This document shows, piece after piece, positions 3,541-43,717 of a stretch of DNA of 54,341 nucleotides; position 1 is the first letter of the stretch; each line of letters opens with the position of its first letter. A model generated the notes under the pieces. The model was not told where the DNA came from. It saw nothing but the letters and a program-made list of their open reading frames with translations, and did no database searches. The position numbers were made by a program, and so were the translations under genes. The DNA comes from Actinomycetes bacterium (GTDB taxonomy: Bacteria > Actinomycetota > Acidimicrobiia > Acidimicrobiales > RAAP-2), in assembly GCA_021828055.1 (NCBI GenBank), contig JAKATH010000008.1:1-54341 (forward strand), in the 5' to 3' direction.

Positions 3541-4296
3541 TCACAGCTCGGCTGCAGACAGCTGAGCGAGCAACGAGGCCGTCGCCGCGGCGATCGGCCT
3601 GCGCGGCGAGCGGTCTCGGACCACGAGGTCGAGCCCGTCCCGTTCGGCGACGACTGCACCCGCCTCGGTGCACACGAGCACCGCTGCGACGTAGTCCCAG
3701 ACCGACAGCGCAGACCGTCCCGCGATGCGGTAGGCGTCGAGCGCGCCTTCGGCCACTGCGCACATGTCCAGCGAGGCGGCCCCGAGCGCTCGGAACTGCG
3801 CCCAACCGGGGTACGCACGCGGGAAGCCAGAGATGCCCACGACTGCATCGGACAGCTCGGTGGTCGTCGCAGGGCGGACGGGGACTGCGTCCCGGAACGC
3901 CCCTTCGCCGCGCACCGCGTGATATCGGGCTCCCGACACCTGGTGGACGACCAGGCCGACGAGCGCGCCTGCCTCGTCGAGCACGCACAGGCTCGTGGCG
4001 TACCACGGGATCCCGAGCGCGGCGTTCGTCGACCCGTCGACCGGGTCCACGACCACGAGGAGCCCCGACTCGGGTCCGGAGCGGCCCGACTCCTCCGACA
4101 GGACCCCCAGACCCTCGCCGTGGAGCACCGCGCACAGCGCGTCGTCGGCCACGACGTCGAAGGCGTACTGCCCTGGCCGCGTGCCAGGTCGACGACGGTC
4201 GACGGGGTCGATCCCGTCCAGCGCGGCCCGTACGGCCCGAGCCCCTTCCAAGAGCACCGGGAGGAGCTCGTCGGGTTCTCCGGGTCCTCTGCCCAC
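3541..4296 (-). CDS. Inositol monophosphatase family protein
   Basis: IMPase motifs VVVDPVDGSTNAALGIPWYATSL and IAGRSALSVWDYVAAVLVCTEAGA; start taken as GTG at 4296 (the ORF track extends to 4362). Confidence 0.85.
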   Translation of the reverse strand: MGRGPGEPDELLPVLLEGARAVRAALDGIDPVDRRRPGTRPGQYAFDVVADDALCAVLHGEGLGVLSEESGRSGPESGLLVVVDPVDGSTNAALGIPWYATSLCVLDEAGALVGLVVHQVSGARYHAVRGEGAFRDAVPVRPATTTELSDAVVGISGFPRAYPGWAQFRALGAASLDMCAVAEGALDAYRIAGRSALSVWDYVAAVLVCTEAGAVVAERDGLDLVVRDRSPRRPIAAATASLLAQLSAAEL

Positions 4297-4334
4297 GGCC
4301 CGGCAGACTACCGGTGGGGTCGCGCACCGCTCGC

Positions 4335-4380
4335 GGCACGACGGAGACGGCCCTGCTGGCACGACGGAGACGGCCCTGCT
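4335..4380. repeat. 2 x 23-bp tandem repeat (ggcacgacggagacggccctgct)
   Basis: Two identical adjacent copies in the divergent intergenic region. Confidence 0.95.
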
Positions 4381-4436
4381 CGGCGCCTCACCGGCGCATC
4401 ACCGCCCTCCGTCCACCCCGTAATCTCGTACTCACT

Positions 4437-4994
4437 GTGGCTGCTATCGATGTCGCCGGCTACGTCGCCGACCTGAAGGACCACTCCGTCGACCACGGGT
4501 TCCACGTCCACGACGAGCGCCATTTCGTCGAGACGTACTCCCTGCGGCAGGTCTGGGAGGTCGACCTCCACCCCGAGGAGGGTTGCGGAGGGCCGCTGGA
4601 CCTGCACCTCGCGCTCGAGGTCGACCCGCGGGTGCTGCTCTCCTTCGAGGACGTGGTCATGGAGCTCTCGGACGACGAAGAGCCGCCCGACGACTTCCAC
4701 TTCCCATTGACGTTCACGTGGGCCCTCCCCCCGCTGCCGCACGGACCCGACCTCCTCCGGCTCGCCATCGACCTGGCAGGCATCGGCGGCATCGAGCTGC
4801 CCCTCGAAGTGTCGGCGATCGACTCGTTCGCGTCGGCGACCGACGGGCCCGAGCGCCGGCTCAACATCGTCGCCAGGCACCCGGTCTCCCTCGCCAGGGT
4901 GCTCGGCGGCGAAGAGCTGCTCTGCGACGTCTTCGATCGGTGCCTCGCGGTCAGCCGCTTCCTCCTCGAAGCTGCCGAGACCTGGCTGGGGTGA
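4437..4994 (+). CDS. Conserved hypothetical protein
   Basis: Protein-like C-terminal portion of the 3441..4994 ORF from GTG 4437 (VAAIDVAGYVADLKDHSVDHGFHVHDERHFVETYS...). Confidence 0.65.
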   Translation: MAAIDVAGYVADLKDHSVDHGFHVHDERHFVETYSLRQVWEVDLHPEEGCGGPLDLHLALEVDPRVLLSFEDVVMELSDDEEPPDDFHFPLTFTWALPPLPHGPDLLRLAIDLAGIGGIELPLEVSAIDSFASATDGPERRLNIVARHPVSLARVLGGEELLCDVFDRCLAVSRFLLEAAETWLG

Positions 4995-5458
4995 CGAAGC
5001 CCGTGGACGCGCCGGCGACCCGCACCCGCCAGCTGCGTGCCGCGCGCATCCCAGTCCTCGCAGTCGCGTTGACCGCCGGTCCGGCGCTGCTCCTGGGCGG
5101 GTGCTCGAACGGCGGCGCCGCGCTCGCTCAGGCCGCCTGTGTCCATATCTACGCCTCGATCCACCTCTACACGGAAGCCGAGCATGCGACCTCCACGGCA
5201 GCCGTGCGTGCCAAGGTCGGCAGAGCAACGAGCGAGCTCGACCAGGCGCTGCAGCTGGCGGCCCAGGCGAACTCCGCCAACCCGGCGTTCAACCCCCTGA
5301 TGACGACGCTCCAGGAGGCCGGACGAACGTCTGAGTCGAACCTGATCGCAGCGTTGCGCGCGCAGTGCGAGGCCGCGCACAACCCGACATCGCAGTCCCC
5401 GGTCCCTGGTCCCACGACAGCGGGCACAGCGCCTGCAGGCGCGGGCTCCTCGGGCTGA
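4991..5458 (+). CDS. Predicted lipoprotein
   Basis: GTGA start/stop overlap with the upstream gene; signal peptide with lipobox ALLLGGCSNGG. Confidence 0.7.
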   Translation: MTKPVDAPATRTRQLRAARIPVLAVALTAGPALLLGGCSNGGAALAQAACVHIYASIHLYTEAEHATSTAAVRAKVGRATSELDQALQLAAQANSANPAFNPLMTTLQEAGRTSESNLIAALRAQCEAAHNPTSQSPVPGPTTAGTAPAGAGSSG

Positions 5459-5480
5459 TCGGAAGGCGCCCCCCGGCCAG

Positions 5481-5585
5481 CGATCGCACGCCGGCCACCT
5501 CACAACGGCCGCCGGCCACCTCCGATCGCACGCCGGCCACCTCCGATCGCACGCCGGCCACCTCCGATCGCACGCCGGCCACCTC
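5481..5585. repeat. 5 x 21-bp tandem repeat (cgatcgcacgccggccacctc)
   Basis: Units at 5481, 5502 (variant), 5523, 5544 and 5565; begins 22 nt after the lipoprotein stop. Confidence 0.97.
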
Positions 5586-5728
5586 AGAACGGCCGACGGG
5601 GGCTGCAGCGCCGACGGACGGCCGTCGGTCGCAGCCATCCGAACGGCAGCGACAGAGCAACGACACGAGAGACGAAGTGTGCGTCGATATGGTGGCCGCG
5701 ACGCAGGAGGTGAGGAGATGGGCACGCA

Positions 5729-6634
5729 ATGCCGTCGGGGACGCGCCGCCCCGCGTCCAGCCGAGGAAGCAAGGGAGCACCTCTGGAAGAGCCGCGCACC
5801 GAGAGCCGGAAGGTGAAGGACACCGCTCCGGGCACGAGACTGGCGGTGCGGGCTTCGAAACCCCTCGATCGCGCGCGTCGAGGTGCCGCGGCGCCCGCGA
5901 CCCCCTCGACGCGTCGCGGCCGGGGCTCGGCGGGTCGTCGCTCGGCGCGTCGTCGCGCCGCCGTGCTGCTGCGCCGCCGCAGGCGGCGCGCCGTGGCACT
6001 GTCGGTCGTCACGGCCGTCATAGTCCTGGGGCTCGTCGCGGTCGGGCTCTCGGAGTCGAACGGGTCCGCCCTCCCTCCCCTCCCGTCGACACCGTTCCGA
6101 GCGCGCATCGTGACGATCGCCGAGTCCCAGCTCGGGTACCGGACCGACCCAGCTCATTCCTACTGCAACAAGTACACCGCTTTCTGGCACGTGGGCACAG
6201 CCACAGGGTGCGGCCGCGGCCTGCGCAGCGAGGAGTGGTGCTCCGACTTCGCGGCGTGGGTGTGGCGGCAGGCCGGTGCACGGTTCGCCTATGGGTACGG
6301 CCAGGCGGACGTCAACGCCGCGTCGGCGAGCTTCTACCTCTGGGCCGCCGCGCACGGCACGTGGCATCCAGCGGGGAGCGGCTACGTGCCCCGGCCGGGC
6401 GACGTGGCCGTCTACGGCCTCGATCCCACAGGGGGCGCGGCGGCACACGTCGCGATCGTGACCTACGACGCGCCGGGGTCCCGCGGGCCCGACGTCGTCA
6501 ACGGCGACGGGGACCGCACGGGGTTCAGCGTCGTCGAGACCGGCACCGACCAGTACACGGCGGACATCCCGGGAACGCACGCTCCCCTCTCGGGCTACGC
6601 GTCACCGATCCCTCCCGCCGCTCCTGCCGCGTAG
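5729..6634 (+). CDS. Arg-rich N-terminus, one TM helix, CHAP-type amidase domain
   Basis: TM AVALSVVTAVIVLGLVAVGL; CHAP-like EEWCSDFAAWVWRQAG ... GYVPRPGDVAVYG ... AHVAIV. Start uncertain (5729 or about 5812). Confidence 0.75.
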   Translation: MPSGTRRPASSRGSKGAPLEEPRTESRKVKDTAPGTRLAVRASKPLDRARRGAAAPATPSTRRGRGSAGRRSARRRAAVLLRRRRRRAVALSVVTAVIVLGLVAVGLSESNGSALPPLPSTPFRARIVTIAESQLGYRTDPAHSYCNKYTAFWHVGTATGCGRGLRSEEWCSDFAAWVWRQAGARFAYGYGQADVNAASASFYLWAAAHGTWHPAGSGYVPRPGDVAVYGLDPTGGAAAHVAIVTYDAPGSRGPDVVNGDGDRTGFSVVETGTDQYTADIPGTHAPLSGYASPIPPAAPAA

Positions 6635-6639
6635 GGCGA

Positions 6640-6972
6640 TCAGGAGGCAGAGGGCCAGATCACCGTAGCGGGCGCGGCCAAGACCGAGCCGTGCGGCCGG
6701 TCTTCGCAGACCTCCCTGAAGCGCCGTTCCCAGTCGTCGTCGACCTGTCCCGCGGCGTGGAAGAGCACGGCATCCGCCCGCAGATGCGCCGTGCCGTCCT
6801 GCTCGAGGGTGCCGACGTTGGTCGCGGCGAGGACGTCGGCGAGCCGGTGCACTGTCGTCTCGGACGCGGCAGAGGCATGGGCCGGCGCTGCGACGACCAC
6901 CGAGACCTCGCGCACGTCGCCCGCTTCGGCGAGGACGACCGTCACCTTCTCGAGGTCGACCACGAACCGCAT
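6640..6972 (-). CDS. Hypothetical protein (110 aa)
   Basis: ATG MRFVVDLEKVTVVLAEAGDVREVSVVVAAP...; tightly packed with the upstream minus-strand gene. Confidence 0.55.
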   Translation of the reverse strand: MRFVVDLEKVTVVLAEAGDVREVSVVVAAPAHASAASETTVHRLADVLAATNVGTLEQDGTAHLRADAVLFHAAGQVDDDWERRFREVCEDRPHGSVLAAPATVIWPSAS

Positions 6973-6976
6973 GCTG

Positions 6977-7369
6977 TCAAGGTGTGACCGCGGCGCCGGG
7001 GGCGAGCACTCCCCGCTCTCGAAGCCGCCCGACGAGCCATGCCACGCTGTCGGGTCCCTCGACGGCCTCCTGCCACCCCTCAAGCAGCCGCTCGACCTCC
7101 TCGCGGCTCGGCACGGTCCCGACGACCTCGACGGTCATGCCCTCGAGCTCCTTCTCGTCGGTGCTGTGGGAGCCCCTTGCGTGGATCCCGCCGAACGGTG
7201 TCGCCCATCCGGACGGCGCCGGCTCGCGCATCACGTAGAGCTCCCCCGTGTCCTCGACCCAACTGAGCTCGTAGCGAACGCCGTGCGCGTCCCGCCAATC
7301 CTGACCGAACTCCACCTCGACGGAGCTCCGCCGCCGCGCGTCCTCGTCGTAGAACTCCTCGATGTCCAT
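6977..7369 (-). CDS. Hypothetical protein (130 aa)
   Basis: ATG MDIEEFYDEDARRRSSVEVEFGQDWRDAHGVRYELSWVEDTGELYVMREP... Confidence 0.6.
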   Translation of the reverse strand: MDIEEFYDEDARRRSSVEVEFGQDWRDAHGVRYELSWVEDTGELYVMREPAPSGWATPFGGIHARGSHSTDEKELEGMTVEVVGTVPSREEVERLLEGWQEAVEGPDSVAWLVGRLRERGVLAPGAAVTP

Positions 7370-7547
7370 CCGGGCGCACTGTAGCCGCCCACCCCCCGGG
7401 CCCGAGGCCCGCGGCCCCAGAGCCGCTCCGAGGCCGCGGGCGGGCGGGAGGCAGCTCGTTCCTCGGTGTGCCCTGGTCACGAGCATTTTCCCTCGGGGGA
7501 GCGTGGGTGGGAGCGGCGGGGGGAGCGCCGACGCGCACCGTCGCCGC

Positions 7548-8306
7548 ATGACGACCGACGCACTCCGACCGCTCGACCGGCTCGTATGGGACTGGGAGTC
7601 CCGACGTCGCTCGCAGGCGTCTCGAGACGCGTTGCGAGCGCTCGCACATGCCGAGCCCGAGGTGGCACGGGTCGGCGCGGCGGACCTCGGCGACCTCGTC
7701 GAGGCGCTCATCGGCTCGAGCCGGACCCCACGTCCGGCGGGGCGGGGGCGGCCCGAGCGCGACCTCGCCGGTGCGCTGTTCAGGGCCGCGTTGCGCTCGG
7801 GGCACGTCCACCCGCTGGTGTCCCGCGCGCTCGTCCAAGCGCTCGTGCCGGGGCTCGTCGGCGTCGCGCGCCGCCTCACATGGGGAAGAGGGGGCGAGTG
7901 GGAGAGCCAGGGCGCCTTCTTCGTCGACGCGATCACCACCGCGTGGGAGGTCGTCGAGGAATGGAGCGGGCAGGACCGGACGTACGCGGTGCTCGACGTG
8001 CTCTCGGCCATCCGCTGCCGGCTCCGCCGGCGCATCCGTCGGCATCACGACCTGCGTCTCTCCGAGCGCCTTGCCTCCGACGACGAGCGACTGCCGGAGT
8101 GGGCGACTCCCAGCGGGAGCGACGTCGAAGAGCTGGCGCGTGCCATCGACAGGGAGCGACGCGAGCTCGACGCGGGTGACGCCGCCGTGCTCTACGCCCA
8201 CCGGGTCCTCGGCTACTCGCTCTCCGAGATCTCTGCGCGCTCGGGCCACTCGCGGCGATTCCTGGCAGCGGGTCGGGACCGGGCGGCTCGCGCGCTCATC
8301 GCTTGA
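7548..8306 (+). CDS. Sigma-70-like / sigma-region-4-type regulator
   Basis: Overall sigma-factor-like layout with C-terminal HTH AVLYAHRVLGYSLSEISARSGHSRRFLAAGRDRAARAL. Confidence 0.6.
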   Translation: MTTDALRPLDRLVWDWESRRRSQASRDALRALAHAEPEVARVGAADLGDLVEALIGSSRTPRPAGRGRPERDLAGALFRAALRSGHVHPLVSRALVQALVPGLVGVARRLTWGRGGEWESQGAFFVDAITTAWEVVEEWSGQDRTYAVLDVLSAIRCRLRRRIRRHHDLRLSERLASDDERLPEWATPSGSDVEELARAIDRERRELDAGDAAVLYAHRVLGYSLSEISARSGHSRRFLAAGRDRAARALIA

Positions 8307-8487
8307 GAATCGGCGTGGAGCGCCATGGCGAGATCGGGTCGACGCTCGCAGGGACCCTGCAGCGAACGCTGCAGCCCGCTACGTTGTCGGGGCGTGGAAG
8401 GTGCGTGCCCGGCGGGCACGGACTTGGGGAATGGGAAGACGGCGCGCGGCAGGGCCCGGTTGCCCGGCGACCGGCGCCGTCCTCGGC

Positions 8488-9642
8488 ATGCACGCGGTGG
8501 CTGATCTTGCGCGCCGGTCCCGTGCCTGGGGCGTCCTCGCGGTGTCGCTCGCGCTCATGGCGCTCGTGACGGCGCTCTCCACCAGGACCGACCACCCCGG
8601 CGATGCGCAGGGGGCGGCGGCTCTCGAGCCCTCCAGGCCCGGGCAGGCTGCGCCCGCCGGGCGGCAGCGTCCGCCTGCGAAGCCGGCGACGACGCACGTG
8701 TCCGGTGCAGCCTCGGGAGCCCTCGGGCCCAGGGGCGACTCGGTCGGACGACGCGCCGCCGCTCAGGGGCCCGGCGGGGCCGCGACGTCGAAGGGGCCCG
8801 GGGGGGCCGCAACGTCGAAGGGAGCCGGCTCGGCCGCGGTCAAGAAGACGGGTCCGACCGAGAGCGGGCAGAGCAGCGCATCCGACGTGGGCGCCTCCCT
8901 CGGGGGTCTCGCGTCGGCCGTCTTCTCTCCATCCCCCTTGTCCACCACCTCCACCACCAGCGGTCCCCAAAGCGGTCCCAGCGGTCCCCCAACGAGAACC
9001 GCCGCTACAGGCGCTGCAGCCCTTCAGGGGACGGCGAACGCACGGACAGCTCCCACCACCTCCCGCACGACCACGACGTCGTCGGCGCCCCGCACCTCGA
9101 CCCGCACGGCCACGACGTCATCGGCGCCCCGCACCTCGACCCGCACGGCCACGACGGCGCCGGCGCCCCGCACCTCGACCCACACGGCCACGACGTCGTC
9201 GGCGCCCCGCACCTCGACCCACACGACCACGACGTCGTCGGCGCCCCGCACCTCGACCCACCACCAGACGCCCCCGACGACATCGTCGGGGGCGAGGGGT
9301 GCCGGCGGCAGCAGCGCCAGCACGCAGGGTGCCACGGCAACGCCGACAAGCCCCGAACACGGTCGGATCGAAGCGCCCTCTACGTCGGTCTCGTATGCCG
9401 CAGCGGGGGGAGGGACGGTCTCGGCCATGGCCACCTGGACCGGCTCCGCGACGCTCGAGCTCGAGATCGCCTGCCCAGGTGGTGTCGCCGTCGCGCGCAG
9501 GGGTTCGTCGGGGCTGTCCCTCGAGGTCGACGACAGCAACGACTCTGCGACCTGCATGGTCACGCTCAGCCTTCCACCGGGCGTGCACGCCGACGTGTCG
9601 TTCACGCTCGTCGTCGGGCCCGCCGCGTTGGCGCAAGGATGA
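8488..9642 (+). CDS. Secreted or membrane-anchored Thr/Ser/Ala-rich stalk protein
   Basis: N-terminal hydrophobic segment AWGVLAVSLALMALVTAL; GPGGAATSK repeats and 5 x 13-aa TTSSAPRTSTRTA repeat; compact C-terminal domain. Confidence 0.65.
   Translation: MHAVADLARRSRAWGVLAVSLALMALVTALSTRTDHPGDAQGAAALEPSRPGQAAPAGRQRPPAKPATTHVSGAASGALGPRGDSVGRRAAAQGPGGAATSKGPGGAATSKGAGSAAVKKTGPTESGQSSASDVGASLGGLASAVFSPSPLSTTSTTSGPQSGPSGPPTRTAATGAAALQGTANARTAPTTSRTTTTSSAPRTSTRTATTSSAPRTSTRTATTAPAPRTSTHTATTSSAPRTSTHTTTTSSAPRTSTHHQTPPTTSSGARGAGGSSASTQGATATPTSPEHGRIEAPSTSVSYAAAGGGTVSAMATWTGSATLELEIACPGGVAVARRGSSGLSLEVDDSNDSATCMVTLSLPPGVHADVSFTLVVGPAALAQG
9064..9258. repeat. 5 x 39-bp in-frame tandem repeat
   Basis: Units at 9064, 9103, 9142, 9181 and 9220 (cgcacgaccacgacgtcgtcggcgccccgcacctcgacc consensus). 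Confidence 0.95.
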
Positions 9643-12617
9643 GGAGCGCTCGCGTGCGTCGCTCCGCGAGGGAGGCCGTCGTCGGGGCCGCCGCCGCGTT
9701 GCTCGTCTTCGGTGCGGTACCGGGGGTGCTCGTCGGGCTCGTGGGCCTGCCGGTCCCCCACCGATGGACGGCCCACGCCGTCGTGTCGTGGCATGGCCTC
9801 TTCGACCTGCTGGCCGTTGCGAGCTGGTGCGCGTGGGCAGGATGCGCGTGGCCCATCCTGAGATCGGTGGCCTCCCGAGTGCGGTCAGGCGACGTCGCGC
9901 CGACCGCCCGGTTCTCTGACCGGATCGCGGTCCGGATCACGCTCGGCGTGCTCGTGCTGGCGTCCTGTTTCGGGCTGGGCGCGTCGGTTGCCGGCGCGTC
10001 GGTTGCCGGCGCGTCGGTTGCCGGCGCGTCGGTTGCCGGCGCGTCGGTTGGGGGCGCGTCTGCGGCGGCGCGGGCGACCGCGGCGGCACCTCCGACCTCG
10101 CCACCGGCACCATCCTCACGTGGTGCGGCGACGCCCGGGACCGAGCAGGTGGAAGCGGTCGGCATACGGGGCTCCACGAAGACGGCCTCTTGGGTCATGA
10201 GGCCGGGCGACACGCTCGCGAGCCTCGCGGCGACCCACTACGGCGCCGTGTCCGACTGGCCCGCGATCGCCGCAGCCAACCTTGGCCGGCTCATGGACGA
10301 CGGAACGCGCTTCGTCGACCCGGCCGTCATCGCTCCGGGGTGGACCCTCGTGCTGCCGGCGCTCGACGCGGACACCCGCTCCGACACGGGGCTGGAGCGA
10401 GCAGCCGGCGCCGGGCCCGCCCCCGGCACCCCTGTCGACGGCTCTGCCACCGCCGCCCTGCTTCCCTCGGGCGGCTCCGTGCTGCCCCTCGCCGAGCTCG
10501 CGGCGTCGGGCATCAGCGCCCTCGTCGCTGGGCTGCTCGCCCGCCGCGCTCGTCAGCTGCGCCGCCTGCGCGCCTTCCTCCGAGAGGAGGGGGAGGAGAG
10601 CGCCCTTCCGGATGCGCGGGAGGCCGATCTCGGCGCCCTCCTCGCGCCGTTCGAACAGGTCCCGCTCGTCGACATGGTGGAGGTGGCCGCACGCGATCTC
10701 GGAGACGTGCTCGCGACACTCGCCCCCACTCCCGGCGCGGTCCTGTGGCTGCGCGCCGGGCGCGACGGCGTCGAGGTCCGCTTCTCGACACCGGTGCCCG
10801 AGCGCGTGCGTGGCTGGCGCCGTACCGGGCATGCGACGTGGCTGCTCCCCGCCACGGTCGACCTCGCGGAGCGAGCGCATGCGTCGCCACGAGCCGAGCC
10901 CTGGTGCGCGCTGCTCCTCCCCATCGGTGACGACGACCGCGGCACGTGGCTGCTCCCGGTCGGCGCCGGATCGAGGGTCGCCGTGGTCGGGCCGCGGGCG
11001 GCAGACCTCGTCCGCACGATGCGCGCAGCGGTGACGACGTGGAGCTGGCACGAAGAGGTCGTCGTGACCGAGGACGTCGACGAGGTGACCGATGCGCTGG
11101 GCCGCGCGGCGCGCTCCTCGACCGGTGTGCGGGCGGTCGGGCCCCAGGTGCTCTTCGTCGGCGACCCGAAGGCGCTCTCGGCGAGGGCGCGAGGAGCGTG
11201 CGCGGTGCTCAGCGCCGGAGTGACCGACGCGGAGACGGTCGTCTTCGTCGACGACCGGGCCGCGAGCGCCCACCCGCTCGGGCTGACCGTCCGCCCCCCG
11301 TTGCTCGACGCCTCCTTGAAGGGTGCCGTCGACGCGCTGACCGGCCCGAGCAACGGAGACCTGGCAGCGGATCGGCGAGACGGGCAGCACGGACGGGGGG
11401 AGCCGCCATCGGGCGGCCCGGCACCTGCGAGCCCTGCGCGCTCGCTCGTCCACCGCGGGACCGCACTCGCCACCGTCCGTGTCGCCGACGACGGGCCCGG
11501 CACCGGCACGACGACGCACCTCAGCCCCACCTCGTCTTCCGGCACGGCGCGTGGCGGCGCGTCCACAGCTGCAAGCCGTGGAAGCGCATCGGAGGTGCAG
11601 TCTCGGGGCAGGGCGGAGGTCCAGTCTCGGGGCAGGGCAGAGGTCCAGTCTCGGGGCAGGGCGGAGGTCCAGTCTCGGGGCAGGGCGGAGGTGCGGCTGC
11701 TCGCGACCGTGCCCGGCATCGTCGGCCTTCAGGGGGAGCTGCCGGCGAAGCGAGCCCGGCGGGCGCTGGAGCTGATCGCCTACCTGGCCGTGCAGACGCC
11801 CGACCCGGTCACCGGCGACCGGCTGCGGACGCGGGTCCTCGGGTCAGCCGACGCCGACGCTGCGGCCAAGACCCTCTTCAACACGGTGGGTGCCGCACGA
11901 CGGGCCCTCGGCGTCGCGCCGGACGGCGAGCCCCTCCTCCCTCCGGCGTCCCGTTCGGGCCACTACCGCCTGTCCCCGCTCGTGACCGTCGACGCGTTGC
12001 GTGCGTGCGCGTTGGTCCACGAGGGGCTGGCATGCCGTGATGCGACCGGGTCGGTGGCCCGGCTCCGGGAGGCGCTCGAGCTCGTGAAGGGCGAGCCGCT
12101 CGGTGGCGTCCTCACCGGCTACGCGTGGTGGCGGGCGGAGGGCCACGAGCGGCGGGTGGCCGACGCGGTGGTCGACGGCGCCTGCGCGCTCGTCGGCGCG
12201 GCCCTCGACTCGGGCGACGTCGACCTCGCCCGGTGGGCCCTCGTGCAGGCGAGGAAGGTGGAGCCCTACAGCGAGTCGCTCGCGCGCGCGGCGATGCGCG
12301 TCGCCGCGGCAGGTGGGGACGTGCGCCGCCTCCACGCGGAGTGGCTGGAGTGCCAGCGCAAGATGGACGAGCTCGACCCGGGCGGAGTGCCCTCGGAGCG
12401 CACCGAGCGGCTCTATGCGACGCTCCGAACGCAGCTCGCAGGCTCCAGCAACGGCACCAGCACCAGCACCAGCTCCGGCACCAGCTCCGGCACCAGCTCC
12501 GGCACCGGCACCGGCTCCGGCTCCGGCACCGGCAAGGAGAGCCCCGGTCAGGCGAGCTTCGCCGCGATCGAGGCTGCGCCCTTGAGGAGCGTGCCGTCGG
12601 CGCCTTCGACCGTGTAG
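9639..12617 (+). CDS. Multi-TM LysM protein with C-terminal SARP-like winged helix and bacterial transcriptional activator domain (BTAD)
   Basis: ATGA overlap with the upstream gene; N-terminal TMs; LysM MRPGDTLASLAATHYGAVSDWPAIAAAN...PGWTLVLP; later TM; C-terminal EVRLLATVPGIVGLQGELPAKRARRALELIAYLAVQ... (wHTH) and BTAD region. Confidence 0.8.
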   Translation: MRSARVRRSAREAVVGAAAALLVFGAVPGVLVGLVGLPVPHRWTAHAVVSWHGLFDLLAVASWCAWAGCAWPILRSVASRVRSGDVAPTARFSDRIAVRITLGVLVLASCFGLGASVAGASVAGASVAGASVAGASVGGASAAARATAAAPPTSPPAPSSRGAATPGTEQVEAVGIRGSTKTASWVMRPGDTLASLAATHYGAVSDWPAIAAANLGRLMDDGTRFVDPAVIAPGWTLVLPALDADTRSDTGLERAAGAGPAPGTPVDGSATAALLPSGGSVLPLAELAASGISALVAGLLARRARQLRRLRAFLREEGEESALPDAREADLGALLAPFEQVPLVDMVEVAARDLGDVLATLAPTPGAVLWLRAGRDGVEVRFSTPVPERVRGWRRTGHATWLLPATVDLAERAHASPRAEPWCALLLPIGDDDRGTWLLPVGAGSRVAVVGPRAADLVRTMRAAVTTWSWHEEVVVTEDVDEVTDALGRAARSSTGVRAVGPQVLFVGDPKALSARARGACAVLSAGVTDAETVVFVDDRAASAHPLGLTVRPPLLDASLKGAVDALTGPSNGDLAADRRDGQHGRGEPPSGGPAPASPARSLVHRGTALATVRVADDGPGTGTTTHLSPTSSSGTARGGASTAASRGSASEVQSRGRAEVQSRGRAEVQSRGRAEVQSRGRAEVRLLATVPGIVGLQGELPAKRARRALELIAYLAVQTPDPVTGDRLRTRVLGSADADAAAKTLFNTVGAARRALGVAPDGEPLLPPASRSGHYRLSPLVTVDALRACALVHEGLACRDATGSVARLREALELVKGEPLGGVLTGYAWWRAEGHERRVADAVVDGACALVGAALDSGDVDLARWALVQARKVEPYSESLARAAMRVAAAGGDVRRLHAEWLECQRKMDELDPGGVPSERTERLYATLRTQLAGSSNGTSTSTSSGTSSGTSSGTGTGSGSGTGKESPGQASFAAIEAAPLRSVPSAPSTV
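9978..10052. repeat. 5 x 15-bp in-frame repeat (ggcgcgtcggttgcc; GASVA)
   Basis: Direct reading, between the last N-terminal TM and LysM. Confidence 0.97.
11592..11687. repeat. 4 x 24-bp in-frame repeat (gaggtccagtctcggggcagggcg; EVQSRGRA)
   Basis: Units at 11592, 11616, 11640 and 11664, immediately before the wHTH. Confidence 0.97.
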
Positions 12618-35240: not shown

Positions 35241-36281
35241 TCAGTCCCCGACCTCCCGGAGGAGCGCGTCGTCCCACTCGGGCCGCGGCGGTCGCTCCAT
35301 GAGCGCCGAGAGCGCGTCCGCGGGCGAGGTCTCCCCCGCGACGAGCGCCGCGACCTGTGCGGCGATGGGCATCTCCACACGATGGGCCTCCGCGAGCCCG
35401 ACGAGGGGCCGCGCGGTCCGCACCCCCTCGGCCACCATGTGCATGCCGGCGAGGACCTCCTCGAGCTGCCGGCCGCTGCCGAGCGCCGCACCGAGCGAGC
35501 GGTTGCGGCTCTGCGGGCTCGTGCACGTCGCGACGAGGTCACCGACGCCGGCGAGCCCGCCGAAGGTGAGGGCGTGCCCCCCGAGCGCGAGCCCGAGCCG
35601 CACCTGCTCGGCCAGCCCGCGGGTCACGAGCACCGCCCGCGTGTTGTCACCGAAGCCGAGGCCGTCGCACACCCCGGCGGCGATGGCGATCACGTTCTTG
35701 CTCGCGCCGGCGATCTCGCACCCGACGACGTCGGTGCCCGTGTACACGCGGAAGGTGCCGCAGTGGAGGAGGTCTTGGACGCACCGGGCGACCGACTCGT
35801 CCTCGCAGGCGACGACGGTCGCCGCGGGATGCCCTGCCGCGACCTCGCGGGAGAGGTTCGGACCGGTCAGCACCGCGACAGGGTGACCGGGGAGCACCTC
35901 AGCGACGATCTCGGACATCCGGAGGTTCGTCCCGGCCTCGATCCCCTTCGCGAGGCTGACGACGGCGGCACCTGCGGGCAGCAGCGGCGCCATGGCCTCG
36001 AGGACGGCGCGGACCCCGTGCGAGGGAACGGCCACGAGCACGACCGCCGCGTCCGCCACCGCGTCCGCGAGCGACGCAGTGGCGCGCACGGACGGCGGGA
36101 GCGCGACCTCGGGCAGGTACCGAGGGTTGACATGGGTCGAGTCCAGCACCCGGGCGAGCTCCGAAGAGCGCGCCCACAGGGTCACCGGCCTCTTGGCGGA
36201 GAGAAGGAGCGCGATCGTGGTGCCCCACGAGCCGGCGCCCACCACCACCACGCCGCCGACCTCTTCGGAGGAGCCTGACAC
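35241..36281 (-). CDS. gpsA: NAD(P)H-dependent glycerol-3-phosphate dehydrogenase
   Basis: VVVGAGSWGTTIALLL; SLAKGIEAGT; LTGPNLSREVAAGHPAA; GASKNVIAIAAGVCDGLGFGDNTRA. Confidence 0.95.
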   Translation of the reverse strand: MSGSSEEVGGVVVVGAGSWGTTIALLLSAKRPVTLWARSSELARVLDSTHVNPRYLPEVALPPSVRATASLADAVADAAVVLVAVPSHGVRAVLEAMAPLLPAGAAVVSLAKGIEAGTNLRMSEIVAEVLPGHPVAVLTGPNLSREVAAGHPAATVVACEDESVARCVQDLLHCGTFRVYTGTDVVGCEIAGASKNVIAIAAGVCDGLGFGDNTRAVLVTRGLAEQVRLGLALGGHALTFGGLAGVGDLVATCTSPQSRNRSLGAALGSGRQLEEVLAGMHMVAEGVRTARPLVGLAEAHRVEMPIAAQVAALVAGETSPADALSALMERPPRPEWDDALLREVGD

Positions 36282-36391
36282 TCTCCTCGAGCCTACGGAC
36301 GCCGCCGTCCCTCGTGCGAGCCTTGACCGTCACCGTCTCGCCCCGGCTCCCCGTGGGCGGGGCCTCGCCGCACGGGGGTAGGGTGCAGAGC

Positions 36392-37063
36392 GTGAACGGC
36401 GACGACGACGTCGCCCGCTGCGCTCCCGGATGGTGGAGCGGTCCCACAGCCACCCATCGCCTCGGCGACCACGCGGTGCTCGTCCCGGTGAAGGCGTTCG
36501 CGCACGCCAAGCGGCGCCTCACGGCCGCGCTCTGCGACGACGACCGAAGAGCGCTCGTCCGCCGAATGGCCGAGCAGGTGTTGCGGGCAGCCGCGCCCTT
36601 CCCCGTCGCCGTCGTCTGCGACGACCCCGAGGTGGCCGCATGGGCTCGCGGCCACCACGCGCTGGTCCTCTGGGAACCGGGACGGGGATTGAACGGGGCG
36701 GTCCAGTCAGGTGTCGCGCAGCTTGCGGCAAGGGGCGTGCGCCGAGTGGTGGTCGCCCATGCAGACCTGCCGATGGCCCGCGACCTTCCCCGCCTCGCGG
36801 GCTTCGACGGGGTGACGCTCGTGCCAGACCGTCGTGACGACGGCACCAACGTCATCGAGCTCTCGACGGGCGCGGGGTTCCGCTTCTCGTACGGGCCGGG
36901 ATCGTTCGCACGGCACCTCGCGGAGTGCGAGCGGCTCGCGCTGGCGGTCCGCGTCGTGCGCGAGCCGCTCCTCTCCTACGACGTCGACTGGCCGAGCGAC
37001 CTGTCCGAGCCCGTGCTGGCCGAAGACGGCGACCAGCACGCCTATCGCTGGACACGCCGCTAA
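36392..37063 (+). CDS. cofC: 2-phospho-L-lactate guanylyltransferase (CofC-like)
   Basis: VLVPVKAFAHAKRRLTAAL; VVVAHADLPMARDL; DRRDDGTNVIEL; FRFSYGPGSFARHLAEC. Confidence 0.85.
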   Translation: MNGDDDVARCAPGWWSGPTATHRLGDHAVLVPVKAFAHAKRRLTAALCDDDRRALVRRMAEQVLRAAAPFPVAVVCDDPEVAAWARGHHALVLWEPGRGLNGAVQSGVAQLAARGVRRVVVAHADLPMARDLPRLAGFDGVTLVPDRRDDGTNVIELSTGAGFRFSYGPGSFARHLAECERLALAVRVVREPLLSYDVDWPSDLSEPVLAEDGDQHAYRWTRR

Positions 37064-37238: not shown

Positions 37239-37286
37239 CTCAGGTCGTCGCCGGCTCAGGTCGTCGCCGGCTCAGGTCGTCGCCGG
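37239..37286. repeat. 3 x 16-bp tandem repeat (ctcaggtcgtcgccgg) spanning the H1-like stop
   Basis: Units at 37239, 37255 and 37271; each carries TCA (TGA on minus strand). Confidence 0.95.
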
Positions 37287-37829
37287 CGCAGCCGCCTTCT
37301 TCGCCGCGCGCGTCTTGGTCGCCCGCTTGGCCGTCGCCTTCTTCACGGCCCGCTTGGCGGGCGCCTTCTTCACGGCCCGCTTGGCGGGCGCCTTCTTGAC
37401 GGCGCGCTTGGCGGTCGTCCGCTTGACGGCCCGCTTGGCGGTCGTCCGCTTGACGGCCCGCTTGGCGGTCGCCTTCTTCACGGCCCGCTTGGCGGGCGCC
37501 TTCTTGACGGCGCGCTTGGCGGTCGCCTTCTTCACGGCCCGCTTGGCGGTCGTCCGCTTGACTGCCCGCTTGGCGGTCGCCTTCTTCACGGCCCGCTTGG
37601 CGGTTGCCTTCTTGACGGCGCGCTTGGCGGTCGCCCGCTTCACGGCCCGCTTGGCGGTCGCCCGCTTGGCGGTCGCCCGCGTCGCCGTCGACTTGCGCGC
37701 GACCGTCTTGCGCGCGGTCGTCTTGCGGGTACCCGCCGCCTTCTTGGCGGTCCGTTTCACGGCCTTTGACGCCGTGGTCCGTTTGGCCGCCCTCTTGGCC
37801 GGCGCTCTCTTGCTTGCGGCAATCGCCAC
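37272..37829 (-). CDS. Histone H1-like Lys/Arg/Ala-rich protein (185 aa)
   Basis: GTG start preceded by GGGAGG; AKRAVKKAT-type 9-aa (27-bp) repeats throughout. Confidence 0.8.
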   Translation of the reverse strand: MAIAASKRAPAKRAAKRTTASKAVKRTAKKAAGTRKTTARKTVARKSTATRATAKRATAKRAVKRATAKRAVKKATAKRAVKKATAKRAVKRTTAKRAVKKATAKRAVKKAPAKRAVKKATAKRAVKRTTAKRAVKRTTAKRAVKKAPAKRAVKKAPAKRAVKKATAKRATKTRAAKKAAAPATT

Positions 37830-38405
37830 AGGTGCACCTCCCTGATAGGTCAACGATGACTCGAGGTGGAGCCTGCGGGCGCCGACTGATCCGAGGATCG
37901 GCCTCCGCATCGCTGCACCGCTTGATTGGTTGTCAACGCGTGCGTCGCCCGTCGTCCTCCCTTGTTCATCGCCGTTCGACGCACCCTTCCGGACCCGGCT
38001 CGTCGGTGGAACGCGCTACGTCGGTGCGATGCGACCGTTCTGTGCGATGCATCACGTCCGCCTCGCACAAGACCATCCGCCGCGCGCTCCATCGTCCAAT
38101 CGTCCACCACGTGTCGGGTCGTACACATTCTCCGTGCCCTTTGGTATGCAGGTCAAGCATTCACGCGCTCTCGCGCGATCGCGGCACCTGCCCGCATCCC
38201 TCGGGCGCCGCGCGCGCGCAGCGTCGTCGTGGACGCACGGATCGAGTGGCCGGCGCGCGAACACGTTGCCGCTGTTGATGATCTTCACCTCCACGCAGTC
38301 GGCGCGCGCGCAGGTGCACTGATCGTCGGACGTTCGCGAGACGACCATGCGACCGTCGAAGGAATTTTCGGGAATTCGACCGGTTGAGCTCCGTTTCGCT
38401 CGAGC

Positions 38406-39887
38406 ATGACTCCGGGGGCGCCGTATCTTCGCGACGCCGGAGGTCGTGCCGGCTCGTTCGCCCGGGTCCAGGACGCGGCACGCGCAGGCAGTGGTGGCGT
38501 GTACCTCGGTCTCGGCGATCGAGGCTGGGCATGGACGGGTCCGGAGCGTTCGGTGCTCGTGCTCGGACCGTCACGCTCGGGAAAGACGTCAGCTCTCGTC
38601 GTGCCGAACGTGCTCGCGGCGCCCGGTCCGGTGGTCGTCACGTCCACGAAGGCAGACGTCCTGCGGGCCACCGCCGGCGCGCGCACGACCTGTGGCTGGT
38701 GCCTCGCCTACGACCCCACGGGCTCGCTCGAGCTTCCTCCGGGGGTCCACCGCGTCGGCTGGTCGCCGGTGAGCGCCGCGCAGGAGTGGCACGGCGCGCT
38801 CGAGGTCGCCGACGCGATGGTGCACACGGCGCGGGGGAAGCCGGCCGGCGCGCACGGCACCGGCGCCGGTGCCGAGGGCCACTGGACCGAGCGTGCGGCG
38901 GCGCTGCTCGCAGCGCTGCTCCACGCTGCGGCGCTCGAGGAGCTCGCGATGCGGGACGTGCTCCACTGGGTCGACCGCCACCACGGCACCCCGGCCCTCG
39001 ACGTGCTCGCCGCGCAGGTGGGGGACGCCGCGGTGCCCACGGATCTCCTGGCGGGCATCCTGAGCACCGACGAGCGTGAGCAGTCGGGGATCTGGTCCAC
39101 CGCTTCGGGCGTCCTCGCAGCCTTCCGGTCCCCCGGCGCCCTCGCGTCCACGGAAGGGCCGCTGCTCGATCCCGACGGGTTCTGCGCCGGCCCGCACACC
39201 CTCTACGTCTGCGCGCCCGCGACGCGCCAGCAGCTCGTCGCGCCGCTGGTCGTCGCGATGCTGTCCCAGGTGCGCGACGCGGCGTACCGGCGCGCGGGCA
39301 GCCCGACCACCCGGAGTCCCGGCCGCGCGGACCGGCGCGTCCCCCCGGTCCTGTTCGCGCTCGACGAGGTGGCGAACATCGCGCCGCTGCCAAGCCTCCC
39401 TTCCATGGTGACCGAGGGCCCCGGCCAAGGTCTCCTCACGCTCGCGTGCCTGCAGGACCTCTCCCAGGCGCGGGCGCGCTGGGGGGCGGAGGCCGACGCC
39501 TTCGTGTCGATCTTCGGCACGACGGTCGTGCTCGGGGGGATCGCCGACATGCGGACGCTGGAAGCGCTCTCGGCACTGGGCGGGGACAGGGAGGTGCGCA
39601 GCCGCACCGTGAGCTTCTCGGAGGGTACGAGCGGCCGGCAGGTGGCCGCGACCGACGCGACGGTCCTGCGCCGCCGCCTCCCCATCGACCTCGTCGCGCG
39701 CGGGGTGGAGGGCTGGGCGCTGTGCGTCGACGCGCGCAACCGGCTCGGGTGGGTCCGGCTGACCCCCGCCCACCAAGCGTGGCCGTGGCGCGACTGCACC
39801 GCGGACCGTGCGCGCGCCGCGCACGCCCGCGATCTGCGCGAGCTGCCTCCACCGCCTGCCGGGCACGCCGGCCGGGGCGCACGCTGA
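38406..39887 (+). CDS. VirD4/TraG-family type IV coupling protein, apparently without N-terminal TM helices
   Basis: Walker A VLGPSRSGKTSALVVPNVL; SPGRADRRVPPVLFALDEVANIAPLPSLP; LTLACLQDLSQARARWG. Confidence 0.85.
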   Translation: MTPGAPYLRDAGGRAGSFARVQDAARAGSGGVYLGLGDRGWAWTGPERSVLVLGPSRSGKTSALVVPNVLAAPGPVVVTSTKADVLRATAGARTTCGWCLAYDPTGSLELPPGVHRVGWSPVSAAQEWHGALEVADAMVHTARGKPAGAHGTGAGAEGHWTERAAALLAALLHAAALEELAMRDVLHWVDRHHGTPALDVLAAQVGDAAVPTDLLAGILSTDEREQSGIWSTASGVLAAFRSPGALASTEGPLLDPDGFCAGPHTLYVCAPATRQQLVAPLVVAMLSQVRDAAYRRAGSPTTRSPGRADRRVPPVLFALDEVANIAPLPSLPSMVTEGPGQGLLTLACLQDLSQARARWGAEADAFVSIFGTTVVLGGIADMRTLEALSALGGDREVRSRTVSFSEGTSGRQVAATDATVLRRRLPIDLVARGVEGWALCVDARNRLGWVRLTPAHQAWPWRDCTADRARAAHARDLRELPPPPAGHAGRGAR

Positions 39888-39922
39888 CCCCGGGGCGCAC
39901 GCTGACCCCGGGCTCACGCTCC
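39872..39922. repeat. About 2.8 x 18-bp tandem repeat (ccggggcgcacgctgacc) spanning both convergent stop codons
   Basis: Units at 39872 and 39890, degenerate third at 39908; T4CP TGA at 39885, relaxase TCA at 39914. Confidence 0.9.
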
Positions 39923-41443
39923 GTCGCGCTCCAGCCCGCGCGCGCCGTCCCTGCGCCGCTCCAGCTCGCGTCGGCGCCCGAGCGCGGCCATCGCCTCGTC
40001 GATCGCGCGAGCGGTGGAGAGGTGGTCGGAGAGACGGCTCGCCGGCATCGCTGCGAGCTCGGACCGCCCTCCTCCGCCGAGCGCCTGCCACCTGTCGTTC
40101 ACCTCCCAGCGGGTGCGGTAGCGGAGGATGGACGAGGCGGCGGAGAGCCACACGGAGAGCCGCTCCGGCGACGACGGGCGCGGCCCGAGCGCACGGAGGA
40201 CGTGGGGCCGGGGGATCAGCGCGGCGGGCGGGTGCAGCGTCTCTGCCACGCCGCCTCCGGCTCCCCAGTGGTGGAGCGCGTCGACGCAGCGCTCGATCGA
40301 CTCGGCAGGTGCCCCTGTCCCGATCGCCACGGCCCACGCACGGATCGCGTCCCGGCGTGCGACGCCACGATGCCCGGACTCGAGGATCGCCGCCGCGAAA
40401 CGGTGCTCGTCGACGTCCACGCGCGCGGCGCGTCGCGCCGGCACCTCTGCCCCGAGCGTCGCGGGCGAGCCCGCGTCGCGGGCGATCCGTGCCCAGCGCG
40501 CCCGCAGCTCGGCCGAAGACGGCGCCGGGACCTTCGGATCGCGCGTCACCGCCCAGGCGACAGCCCGCGCGCGCCGCGAGGCCGGCGCCCGGGTCCCTCG
40601 CGCCCGGTCCGGCCCGGCGTCCCCTCGCGCCCGGTCCGGCCCGGCGTCCCCTCCCGCCCCTCCCGCCGGAGCCTGCCGGCGGGCACGCCCCTCGAGCTCG
40701 GCCAGGATCTCCGCGCGCCGTTCCGACAGCGCGCCGGCGAGGACCGGGTCGACCGCCGAGACCTCCCAGCCCGACGGACGCCTCGGCGACCACTCGAGGC
40801 CCAGCCGCGCCGTCACGCCGTGGCGCAGGGCTGCGTCGTAGAGCGCCCCCGCCGCCCGCGCGTGCGCGTACAGACCCCGCCCGTCGATGGCCCGCCACCG
40901 CCCGTCGCCGCCGCGCGCCAGGTTCGCGACGACCACGTGGGAATGGAGGTGCGGGTCGAGCGCCCTGCTCACGCAGTGGGTGAAGGCGGCTGCGACGAGG
41001 CCGTCGACGGAGCTGGCCGAGCGACCGTCCGGACCCGCCTGCCGCACCACCGCCGCGTGCCCGGCGACGTAGCCCGCGGCGGCGTCGACCGCCTCCTCGT
41101 GGGCGTCGCGCACCGCGCCCGCCGCGTCCGGCGTCCCCAGCGCGAACAGCACGCTCGCCGACTTCGGGGCGGCGAACGTGAGGTCGTACGCGCGCACGGC
41201 CGGCTCTCGCGCCGAGAGCCGATGGCCCCCCGACGGGTGGCGCCCCGAGAGCACGGCTGCGAGCTGGGCATCCTCCACGCGCCCGCAGAGCGCGAGCCCG
41301 GCGGCGCCGGCGCCGAGCCAACGTGCCGGCAGCGGACCGGGCCGGTCCTCGCCGGTCTGGAATGCGGCGCCGGCGAGCTCGAGATCGCGGTCCGAGAGGT
41401 AGTACCGCCCCGTCGAGTCCGTGACACGCGCGACCCTGAGCAC
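39914..41443 (-). CDS. MobF/TrwC-type relaxase domain protein without helicase module
   Basis: Tyr pair GRYYLSDRDLELAGAAFQTGED; YDLTFAAPKSASVLFAL; three-His motif HCVSRALDPHLHSHVVVANLA. Only 509 aa. Confidence 0.85.
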   Translation of the reverse strand: MLRVARVTDSTGRYYLSDRDLELAGAAFQTGEDRPGPLPARWLGAGAAGLALCGRVEDAQLAAVLSGRHPSGGHRLSAREPAVRAYDLTFAAPKSASVLFALGTPDAAGAVRDAHEEAVDAAAGYVAGHAAVVRQAGPDGRSASSVDGLVAAAFTHCVSRALDPHLHSHVVVANLARGGDGRWRAIDGRGLYAHARAAGALYDAALRHGVTARLGLEWSPRRPSGWEVSAVDPVLAGALSERRAEILAELEGRARRQAPAGGAGGDAGPDRARGDAGPDRARGTRAPASRRARAVAWAVTRDPKVPAPSSAELRARWARIARDAGSPATLGAEVPARRAARVDVDEHRFAAAILESGHRGVARRDAIRAWAVAIGTGAPAESIERCVDALHHWGAGGGVAETLHPPAALIPRPHVLRALGPRPSSPERLSVWLSAASSILRYRTRWEVNDRWQALGGGGRSELAAMPASRLSDHLSTARAIDEAMAALGRRRELERRRDGARGLERDGA

Positions 41444-41467: not shown

Positions 41468-41635
41468 GGGCATGGCCCCCTCCCGCGCCGCCCCGGCCAT
41501 CTCCGGCTCCGCAATGACCCCATCCGGCACCGCCCCGGCCATCCCCGACTTCGCCCAGGTCATTCCGGGCACCGCCCCGGCCATCCCCCGCGCCGCCCAG
41601 GTCATCTCCGACTTCGCCCAGGTCATCCCGGCCAT
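41468..41635. repeat. About 8 degenerate 21-bp tandem units between relaxase start and pafBC stop
   Basis: Units at about 41468, 41489, 41510, 41531, 41552, 41573, 41594 and 41615 (cgcccaggtcatctccgactt / cgccccggccatccccgactt). Confidence 0.85.
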
Positions 41636-41695: not shown

Positions 41696-43717
41696 TTACC
41701 GATACCGGGAGCGCAGCAGGCGCGTCGCGGCCTTCGGCCCGGCGTCGGCGAGCTCGGGCGGCGCCAGCACCCGTGCCCGCGGGCCCGCTTGGAGGAGGAT
41801 CCGCTCGAGCCAAGCACGGCCTCCCACCGCGAGCACGACCCGGACGGCGGCGCCCGGACCCTCCTCCCTCGCGAGCACGGGGACCGAGTCGGCGACCCAG
41901 CGCGCGTCGCCGCGGAGCTCGAGCGTCGCCTTCTCGGCCCCAGGCCCTGGGACGAACGCCCCGGCACCCGCGTGGCCGGCGAGACGGGCGGTGACCGGCC
42001 GGCCGATCGGTCGAGCCCGCCGGATCCGGTCGACGCGGAAGCGTCGCACCCCCTCGGCTCTGTGGCAGTAGGCGTCCAGGTACCAGTGGCCGTCGAGCGA
42101 GAGCACCTCGAGCGGCTCGACGACGCGCTCGGTCGTCTCGTCGGTCGACGCCGAGTGGTACACGATGGCGACCTGCTCGCCCGCGGCGGCGAACGCCTTC
42201 ACCTCGTCGAGGAGCGGGGGGGCGTCGATCCGGATCACGAGGCGCCGGCCGTCGCCGAGCAGGGCCTCGAGCTTGCCCAGCGCACGCGCGAGCGCCCCGT
42301 CGCGGTCCGCGCCCGGGACCGCCAGGATCGTGCGTGCCGAGGCCGCGAGCGCGAGGCCCTCGGCGGGGGTGAGCCGGCGCGGACGAGCGAGCTCCCTGGG
42401 CAGGGAGGCCCGCACGGCATCGTCGCTCACGACGATCTCGAGCAGCGTGTCGGGCGTGTACGGGGGGACGCCGCAGCAGGCCGCGAGCTCGAGCTCTTGG
42501 ACCACCTCGCCGGGGCTCATGTCGAAACGGCTCGACAGCTCCGCGATCGGCACCTCGCCCGCCTCCGCGAGCCAGGCCACGATCGCGAGCAGCCGGCGGA
42601 GCCGCGCGCTCGCCGCGCTGCCAGGCTGGCGCGACGGCGGGCGCCTCTGACCGGGAGCCGGGCCGGCGACGCGGCCGGTCGGCGCGGCGGCAGGCCCAGC
42701 CGGCGCCCGCTCGGGGACGCCAGCCTGCGACGCGGGGACGCCCGCCTGCGACGCAGGGACGCCCGCCTGCGACGCGGGGACGCCCGCCTGCGACGCGGGG
42801 ACGCCAGCCCCGATCTCCTCCAGCCACGACACGACCGCCGCCCGGGACTGCGGGGGCCCGACCACCTCTGCGTGGTCGAGCAGCCCGAGGACCCACGAGC
42901 GGAGGACGTCGAAGCTGCTCACGCCGAGACGCAGCAGGACCGACCCGGACGCCGTGCGCTCGACGACCGCACGCTCCCCCACCTCGGCCGCGACGCGCGG
43001 CCCCTCGACCGCATCGACGCGGACGAGCACCTGCTCTGCCTCCTCGTCGTCTCGCCAGGGGTCGAGCGCGGCGTCGTGCCCGGGGTAGCCCTCCGGCACC
43101 GTCCCGCTCCCCGGCAAGCCCGCCGCGACGCGGGAGTCGATGCGGTCGACGCGGTACGTGCGCGGTGCGGCGCGCTCGCGGTCCCATCCGGCGAGGTACC
43201 ACCGGCCCCCGCGGAACTCCAGCGTCGCGGGGGCCACGATTCGCGCCACGTCACGGTAGGAGAAGCGGACCTCGGCCTGCGAGCGAACGGCGTCGAAGAG
43301 CGGGACGAGCGCTTCGGGTGCGTCGACCTGCGCGACGGTGTGGGCTTGCGCGACGCCCCACGCGCCCAGCTTCGCCAGCGCGTCTCTCCCGCTCGGGTCC
43401 CCGAGCTGGACGCCGGCGACGGCGAGGTACAGCGCCGCCTGCTCGTCGGGCTCGAGCTCGAGATCGGGCAGGTAGAAGGCGTCGGGGTCGATGCGGTACC
43501 CGTACTGCTCGGGACCCTCCACCGGCTCGGTCACGACGGGGATCCCCTCGTCGCGCAGGATCCTCTTGTCGCGCTCGAACGCCTGTCGGCGGGCCGCGTG
43601 CGAGGCAGGGTACCCGGGCACCGCGGCCGCGATCTCCTCCAGCGTGCGCGGTCTTCGCGCGTCGAGCAGCACCAGCACGAGGTCCGTCAGCCGTTCGAGG
43701 CGGTCGAGGGTCGCCAT
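41696..43717 (-). CDS. pafBC: Fused double-WYL regulator, PafB-PafC type
   Basis: MATLDRLERLTDLVLVLLDARRPRTLEEIAAAVPGYP...WYLAGWDRERAAPRTYRVDRI; second module ARLRRLLAIVAWLAEAGEVPIAELSSRF...WYLDAYCHRAEGVRRFRVDRI. Confidence 0.85.
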   Translation of the reverse strand: MATLDRLERLTDLVLVLLDARRPRTLEEIAAAVPGYPASHAARRQAFERDKRILRDEGIPVVTEPVEGPEQYGYRIDPDAFYLPDLELEPDEQAALYLAVAGVQLGDPSGRDALAKLGAWGVAQAHTVAQVDAPEALVPLFDAVRSQAEVRFSYRDVARIVAPATLEFRGGRWYLAGWDRERAAPRTYRVDRIDSRVAAGLPGSGTVPEGYPGHDAALDPWRDDEEAEQVLVRVDAVEGPRVAAEVGERAVVERTASGSVLLRLGVSSFDVLRSWVLGLLDHAEVVGPPQSRAAVVSWLEEIGAGVPASQAGVPASQAGVPASQAGVPASQAGVPERAPAGPAAAPTGRVAGPAPGQRRPPSRQPGSAASARLRRLLAIVAWLAEAGEVPIAELSSRFDMSPGEVVQELELAACCGVPPYTPDTLLEIVVSDDAVRASLPRELARPRRLTPAEGLALAASARTILAVPGADRDGALARALGKLEALLGDGRRLVIRIDAPPLLDEVKAFAAAGEQVAIVYHSASTDETTERVVEPLEVLSLDGHWYLDAYCHRAEGVRRFRVDRIRRARPIGRPVTARLAGHAGAGAFVPGPGAEKATLELRGDARWVADSVPVLAREEGPGAAVRVVLAVGGRAWLERILLQAGPRARVLAPPELADAGPKAATRLLRSRYR
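42715..42798. repeat. 4 x 21-bp in-frame repeat (GVPASQA on minus strand)
   Basis: Units at 42715, 42736, 42757 and 42778, in the linker between the two WYL modules. Confidence 0.97.

Follow-up and report, generated by a model that had tools for sequence, protein, structure and literature searches.

A short MobF relaxase and a TM-less coupling ATPase as the probable DNA-processing half of a domesticated chromosomal conjugation system in Acidimicrobiales

Genes and features of the locus

The stretch of DNA analysed here (the window, 54,341 bp) is a single contig (C125) of a 2.64 Mb MAG, 84% complete, from the Acidimicrobiales family referred to below as f1. Its central feature is a pair of convergent genes, encoding a type IV coupling protein (T4CP) and a relaxase, set among housekeeping genes:

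35241–36281, reverse strand: gpsA, conserved neighbour on the T4CP side (domains and synteny)
36314–37063, forward strand: cofC, conserved neighbour on the T4CP side (domains and synteny)
38406–39887, forward strand: TM-less T4CP, a VirD4/TraG-type coupling ATPase of 493 aa (PF02534/PF12696/PF10412; alignment of 14 homologues)
38565–38588, forward strand: Walker A motif of the T4CP, GPSRSGKT, residues 54–61 (near-invariant in the 14-homologue alignment)
39351–39368, forward strand: Walker B motif of the T4CP, LFALDE, residues 316–321 (D320 and E321 invariant in the same alignment)
39914–41443, reverse strand: helicase-less MobF relaxase of 509 aa (PF08751, NF041492)
39944–40222, reverse strand: C-terminal block of MobF, residues 408–500, homologue of the terminal region that follows the helicase in full-length MobF
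40587–40659, reverse strand: in-frame minisatellite in the MobF linker (GDAGPDRAR repeats), missing from most aligned relatives
40937–40978, reverse strand: stretch of MobF with the His triad H156, H167 and H169 (52/52 distinct core MobF; TrwC/TraI alignment)
41399–41404, reverse strand: first catalytic Tyr pair of MobF, Y14–Y15 (38/38 aligned core MobF)
41696–43717, reverse strand: pafBC (WYL/HTH_PafC), conserved neighbour upstream of MobF (domains and synteny)

Domain matches confirm the convergent pair at the coordinates and strands given in an initial annotation, which had also, correctly, taken the surroundings for chromosomal (gpsA, cofC and pafBC are conserved core genes across relatives) and had seen neither VirB4 nor an integrase nearby; there is none of either among the genes called at 33–50 kb of the window. 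A defence function was considered and dropped, PADLOC having returned no match for MobF or the T4CP. Minisatellite-like tandem repeats crowd the window from 1 to 54341 (60 TRF rows, some overlapping, in 54 kb; for example 5481–5599, 9062–9259, 37321–37672, 40587–40659, 41472–41629 and 42712–42809), and several of them are intragenic, in the linkers of MobF and pafBC and in a Lys-rich ORF. A Lys/Ala-rich, histone H1-like ORF at 37272–37910 adjoins the pair, with similar short ORFs near the pair in some relatives.

Anatomy of the coupling ATPase and the relaxase

The coupling ATPase matches PF02534 (1.4e-23), PF12696 (6.5e-20) and PF10412 (1.7e-10) and has both the RecA-like ATPase with Walker A/B motifs and the TraG-D_C domain of the VirD4/TraG type, with a mean column identity of 64% over its 14 aligned homologues. 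Its first 160 residues contain no hydrophobic segment, in contrast to the VirD4 encoded elsewhere in the genome, which has one at residues 5–23, and the open frame extends only 6 codons upstream of the noted start; the missing TM anchor is therefore real, and the first description of the protein, as possessing Walker motifs and lacking an N-terminal anchor, is borne out by alignment, hydrophobicity and frame extent alike.

The relaxase is recognised by PF08751 (2.4e-67) and, above the cut-off of that model, by NF041492 MobF (4.5e-63), and it matches TrwC/TraI across the relaxase domain, H156, H167 and H169 aligning with the His residues of TrwC. A domain search found no helicase domain after the relaxase domain, in agreement with the helicase-less form first proposed, and the RecD-like helicase expected of MOBF is missing. 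A profile of residues 408–500 nevertheless finds the extreme C-terminus of MobF proteins of 950–1240 aa (L104 1156–1240, 1.3e-8; L118 865–938, 3.6e-8; L122 1038–1070, 9.7e-9). As this C-terminal block corresponds to the end of the long form, the short MobF reflects internal loss of the helicase, not simple truncation. Partial AAA_30 remnants are kept in the MobF of some other families.

The YY at residues 14–15 and the His triad are among the most conserved columns of the core MobF alignment: the three His are invariant in all 52 distinct core proteins, drawn from about a dozen families, and the YY in each of the 38 of these whose N-terminus aligned. Within f1, twenty aligned homologues keep both (the YY in all those with an N-terminus). 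Diverged members escaped automatic alignment at this end, and in the few read by eye at least one Tyr remains there. Neither these twenty proteins nor the core MobF of other families have a second Tyr pair, a feature that ICE-type MobF proteins from the same genera do have, within EEYYTGSGEAPG. What had been said of the catalytic residues thus holds for the His triad and for Y14/Y15, the first Tyr pair, the second pair being absent, and the alignment gives no sign of mutation at these kept residues. AlphaFold models built from three-row alignments reached a pLDDT of 42 (MobF) and 34 (T4CP), too low for active-site geometry. A recent plasmid origin of the pair was considered and dropped, the best plasmid matches being about 36% identical for the T4CP and about 42% identical, over a third of MobF, for the relaxase.

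Distribution and synteny of the pair

In a search of 150 f1 genomes (T4CP threshold E<=1e-30), the T4CP was matched in 149, about 144 of these matches being as strong as those of the syntenic family and the others looking VirD4-level, and MobF in 146, a few as element-type copies. Among the 107 genomes whose two best places (T4CP and MobF) were parsed, the genes are adjacent and convergent in 105 and on different contigs in the other two. The shared order is gpsA-cofC-[T4CP> <MobF]-pafBC, and in most loci read alpha-mannosidase, gpsA and cofC lie on one side and pafBC, often with T4P genes, on the other; outside f1, no T4P neighbours occur in the loci read. As the same arrangement recurs in families f24, f36 and f37, the synteny proposed for checking in relatives is conserved both across f1 genera and beyond the family.

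A class-wide search of 296 genomes placed the T4CP in f1, f16, f18, f20, f24 and f32–f38 of the order, with a few weaker matches in other families of the class; among the families listed it was not found in f3, f7, f15, f19, f21 and f22. The arrangement varies: in f18 and f32 the T4CP is not beside MobF, and in f9 MobF stands beside pafBC, and there is a VirB4-VirD4 locus. Homologues of all parts occur in a genome of 2,158,157 bp on one contig (G178), taken as the cultured Acidimicrobium ferrooxidans.

A core T4SS operon in the same genome

The pair had been described as an orphan without a T4SS. That description fails once the rest of the genome is searched, as the initial annotation had recommended: contig C51 of the same genome (G000) encodes a DUF6112 pilin, a TrbL/SCO6881-like VirB6, a SCO6880-family protein, VirB4 and a TM-bearing VirD4, so that relaxase, T4CP and T4SS modules are all present. 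Transporter genes interrupt the operon in this genome; in several relatives it is contiguous and is flanked by a PhoR-like kinase and an OmpR-type regulator (a divergent HK/RR pair) and by a ROK kinase; the block with its kinase pair is also found in the putative A. ferrooxidans, in f33, f36 and others. The splitting MFS/ABC transporter block and a tyrosine integrase near the contig end were noted on C51 (L064, 6609–15013 and 925–2112).

VirB4 is present in 134/150 f1 genomes, the matches in genus g9 being weak. It is also found in 25 of 26 chosen genomes, of which 24 belong to families other than f1. In f16 (G039, G386, G426) MobF adjoins, and is divergent from, pilin-VirB6-SCO6880-VirB4, so that a single locus unites what lies apart in f1. 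Judged by its gene order across relatives, the T4SS operon is a core, syntenic, non-ICE locus, and the genome holds one MobF only; the pair is consequently not the property of a complete ICE elsewhere, a possibility that had been raised against it.

Co-evolution and selection

Pairwise distances at the T4CP and MobF loci correlate closely with those at the unlinked VirB4 (Spearman 0.945 and 0.904, respectively), and those of both T4CP and VirB4 follow the chromosomal marker gpsA (0.95 and 0.96; Mantel p 0.001), which fits vertical inheritance. Across three species, dN/dS is 0.27–0.34 for MobF, 0.21–0.26 for the T4CP and 0.10–0.14 for VirB4, within or close to the values of the chromosomal comparators gpsA (0.18) and pafBC (0.28), and the frames of MobF and the T4CP are open in nearly all genomes read. 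By these ratios, all three genes are under purifying selection.

These results bear on the three readings offered at the outset: a decayed element, a minimal mobilisable module and a domesticated DNA-processing pair. Slow decay of an old conjugative element would account for the lost helicase and second Tyr pair and for the reduced, fast-evolving MobF of the small-genome genus g9; it is nonetheless very improbable for genes with dN/dS of 0.2–0.34, largely open frames and a His triad kept throughout the core proteins. A gene order shared between genera and between families, together with purifying selection and catalytic residues that do not vary, argues against both decay and mobility, and lends support to domestication.

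Domestication need not imply a link to the T4SS. The pair might act inside the cell, in chromosome processing, replication restart or repair, as could suit a TM-less ATPase, a locus that in f1 lies apart from the T4SS, and the adjacency of pafBC, a DNA-damage regulator by its known homologues. Several genomes (G004, G019, G020, G052 and others) also keep the pair and have no strong VirB4 match, which may reflect divergence of VirB4 or a function that does not need the T4SS; G020 has a diverged VirB4-like ORF on closer reading. Such a T4SS-independent role is nevertheless improbable, as the pair evolves in step with VirB4, MobF stands beside the T4SS operon in f16, and a TM-less T4CP of the same family accompanies a full MobF on the element-like contigs described next.

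Mobile relatives and the search for an oriT

Two contigs carry a tandem of a 944-aa MobF, which has both Tyr pairs, and a TM-less T4CP after it:

G009:C293 (L118), 4245–8437: tandem MobF and T4CP
G001:C146 (L117), 8064–12331: tandem MobF and T4CP

Their T4CPs belong to the same family as the core protein (1.8e-144 for G001:C146, 3.2e-148 for G009:C293), but, unlike the pair in the window, these elements have the full-length relaxase, the helicase domain being seen in the G009 copy. The contigs contain transposase, restriction-type or helicase genes, and no T4SS genes occur in the 13–20 kb read around the tandem pairs. In the T4CP tree the element proteins join those of the f16 core (99/95) and are nested in the core set, and in the MobF tree they also fall among core families, with several deep forks of low resolution; with forks so poor, the trees fit capture in either direction, from or by mobile elements. 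The tandem elements may use the core T4SS as a helper.

Their existence argues for regarding the pair in the window as an IME, a minimal mobilisable module hitch-hiking on a helper T4SS. Such a module should hardly keep one fixed chromosomal place among housekeeping genes from genus to genus and family to family, be near-universal in f1, be free of an integrase among the genes called nearby, and have distances that track gpsA, and we regard this reading as highly unlikely.

No shared inverted repeat that might mark an oriT was found in the intergenic regions adjoining the pair or the T4SS locus. The repeats upstream of MobF (41472–41629) were considered as oriT iterons and dropped, the window being rich in minisatellites and most compared relatives having less than 100 bp there. 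Nor was an oriT found in the gap between HK and pilin genes, where just three of ten genomes have TGRAA repeats, spaced by approximately 10 bp: upstream of the pilin in L215 (G344:C23, ~6408–6445), and in G003 and G007. These repeats are a possible candidate box for the divergent response regulator.

The missing oriT leaves some room for a different fate of the machinery, in which T4SS and relaxase were domesticated for DNA release or protein secretion, not for cell-to-cell transfer, with the relaxase serving release, much as in the DNA-secreting GGI of gonococci or in T4SSs that have no relaxase. Chromosomal T4SSs have often been recruited for secretion (PMC3158045; for Patescibacteria, PMC12102498). 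Pure protein secretion is hard to reconcile with an invariant nuclease site and the retention of two DNA-type coupling ATPases, release of DNA into the medium may still occur, and this reading as a whole, the strongest of the alternatives, is on the unlikely side.

Comparison with known systems

The relaxase resembles TrwC of R388 and TraI of F in its PF08751 domain, three-His site and first Tyr pair, and its partner resembles TrwB/TraD-type coupling proteins in its Walker A/B motifs and TraG-D_C domain; the pair differs from those systems in having no helicase half, second Tyr pair or T4CP TM anchor, and in its convergent order at a fixed chromosomal locus. The T4SS shares a DUF6112 pilin, an SCO6881/TrbL-like VirB6, an SCO6880-family protein, VirB4 and VirD4 with actinobacterial conjugative elements of the SCO6880/SCO6881 type, but the f1 operon has no relaxase, is accompanied by a two-component pair and keeps the same chromosomal place across families.

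In Patescibacteria, a core T4SS is similarly widely conserved, chromosomal and not on a mobile element, and is mostly without a relaxase (PMC12102498). Unlike it, the Acidimicrobiales system keeps a relaxase and a second coupling ATPase. The GGI of Neisseria gonorrhoeae, an island of horizontal origin whose relaxase is of the MobH type, encodes an ssDNA-secretion T4SS that exports chromosomal DNA. The Acidimicrobiales loci are alike in combining a chromosomal relaxase with a T4SS, from whose genes export is predicted, and differ in being MobF-type and, apparently, vertically inherited over many families. No paper on this system was found in the library searched, whose coverage excludes most subscription journals.

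A probable chromosomal DNA-export system and the absence of ComEC

One Acidimicrobiales clade probably has, as part of its core genome, a chromosomal conjugation (DNA-export) system that was domesticated and is passed on vertically, with the relaxase and T4CP as its DNA-processing half. From the protein families involved we infer four steps: nicking, unwinding, recruitment and transfer between cells. MobF would nick chromosomal DNA through Y14 at a putative oriT-like site and remain on the 5' end, while the TM-less T4CP would act as a soluble motor docking the relaxosome onto the membrane channel of VirD4/VirB4. A host helicase would replace the lost helicase half and, with the T4CP, drive ssDNA out, to enter a neighbouring cell (or the medium) and recombine. 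That the second Tyr pair was lost is in keeping with a process that has no need to recircularise a plasmid.

Conjugation is usually ascribed to selfish mobile elements. Were the model correct, about a dozen families would have, fixed in their chromosomes, a form of bacterial sex owned by the host, its relaxase pared down to a minimal nuclease. The presence of homologues of all parts in A. ferrooxidans, a cultured type species, would make the system testable.

Such a system could stand in for natural transformation in a clade without the ComEC channel. ComEC (PF03772) was found in none of the 61 genomes tested from families that have the system and in every one of the 25 tested from families scored as lacking it, f9 being scored as positive on the strength of MobF beside pafBC and its VirB4-VirD4 locus, and negative families being those in which the T4CP was unmatched in the class search or T4CP matches were few or none. 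The positives probably form one clade, so the pattern probably amounts to one correlated event at most, not 86 independent ones. It suggests that the system replaced natural transformation and yields a concrete evolutionary hypothesis. The full proposition, of an order-level clade in which a built-in machine for conjugation, inherited vertically, carries the chromosome from cell to cell in place of transformation after loss of ComEC, is a tentative one, rather less likely to be right than wrong. DprA is found in every tested negative and is patchy in the positives.
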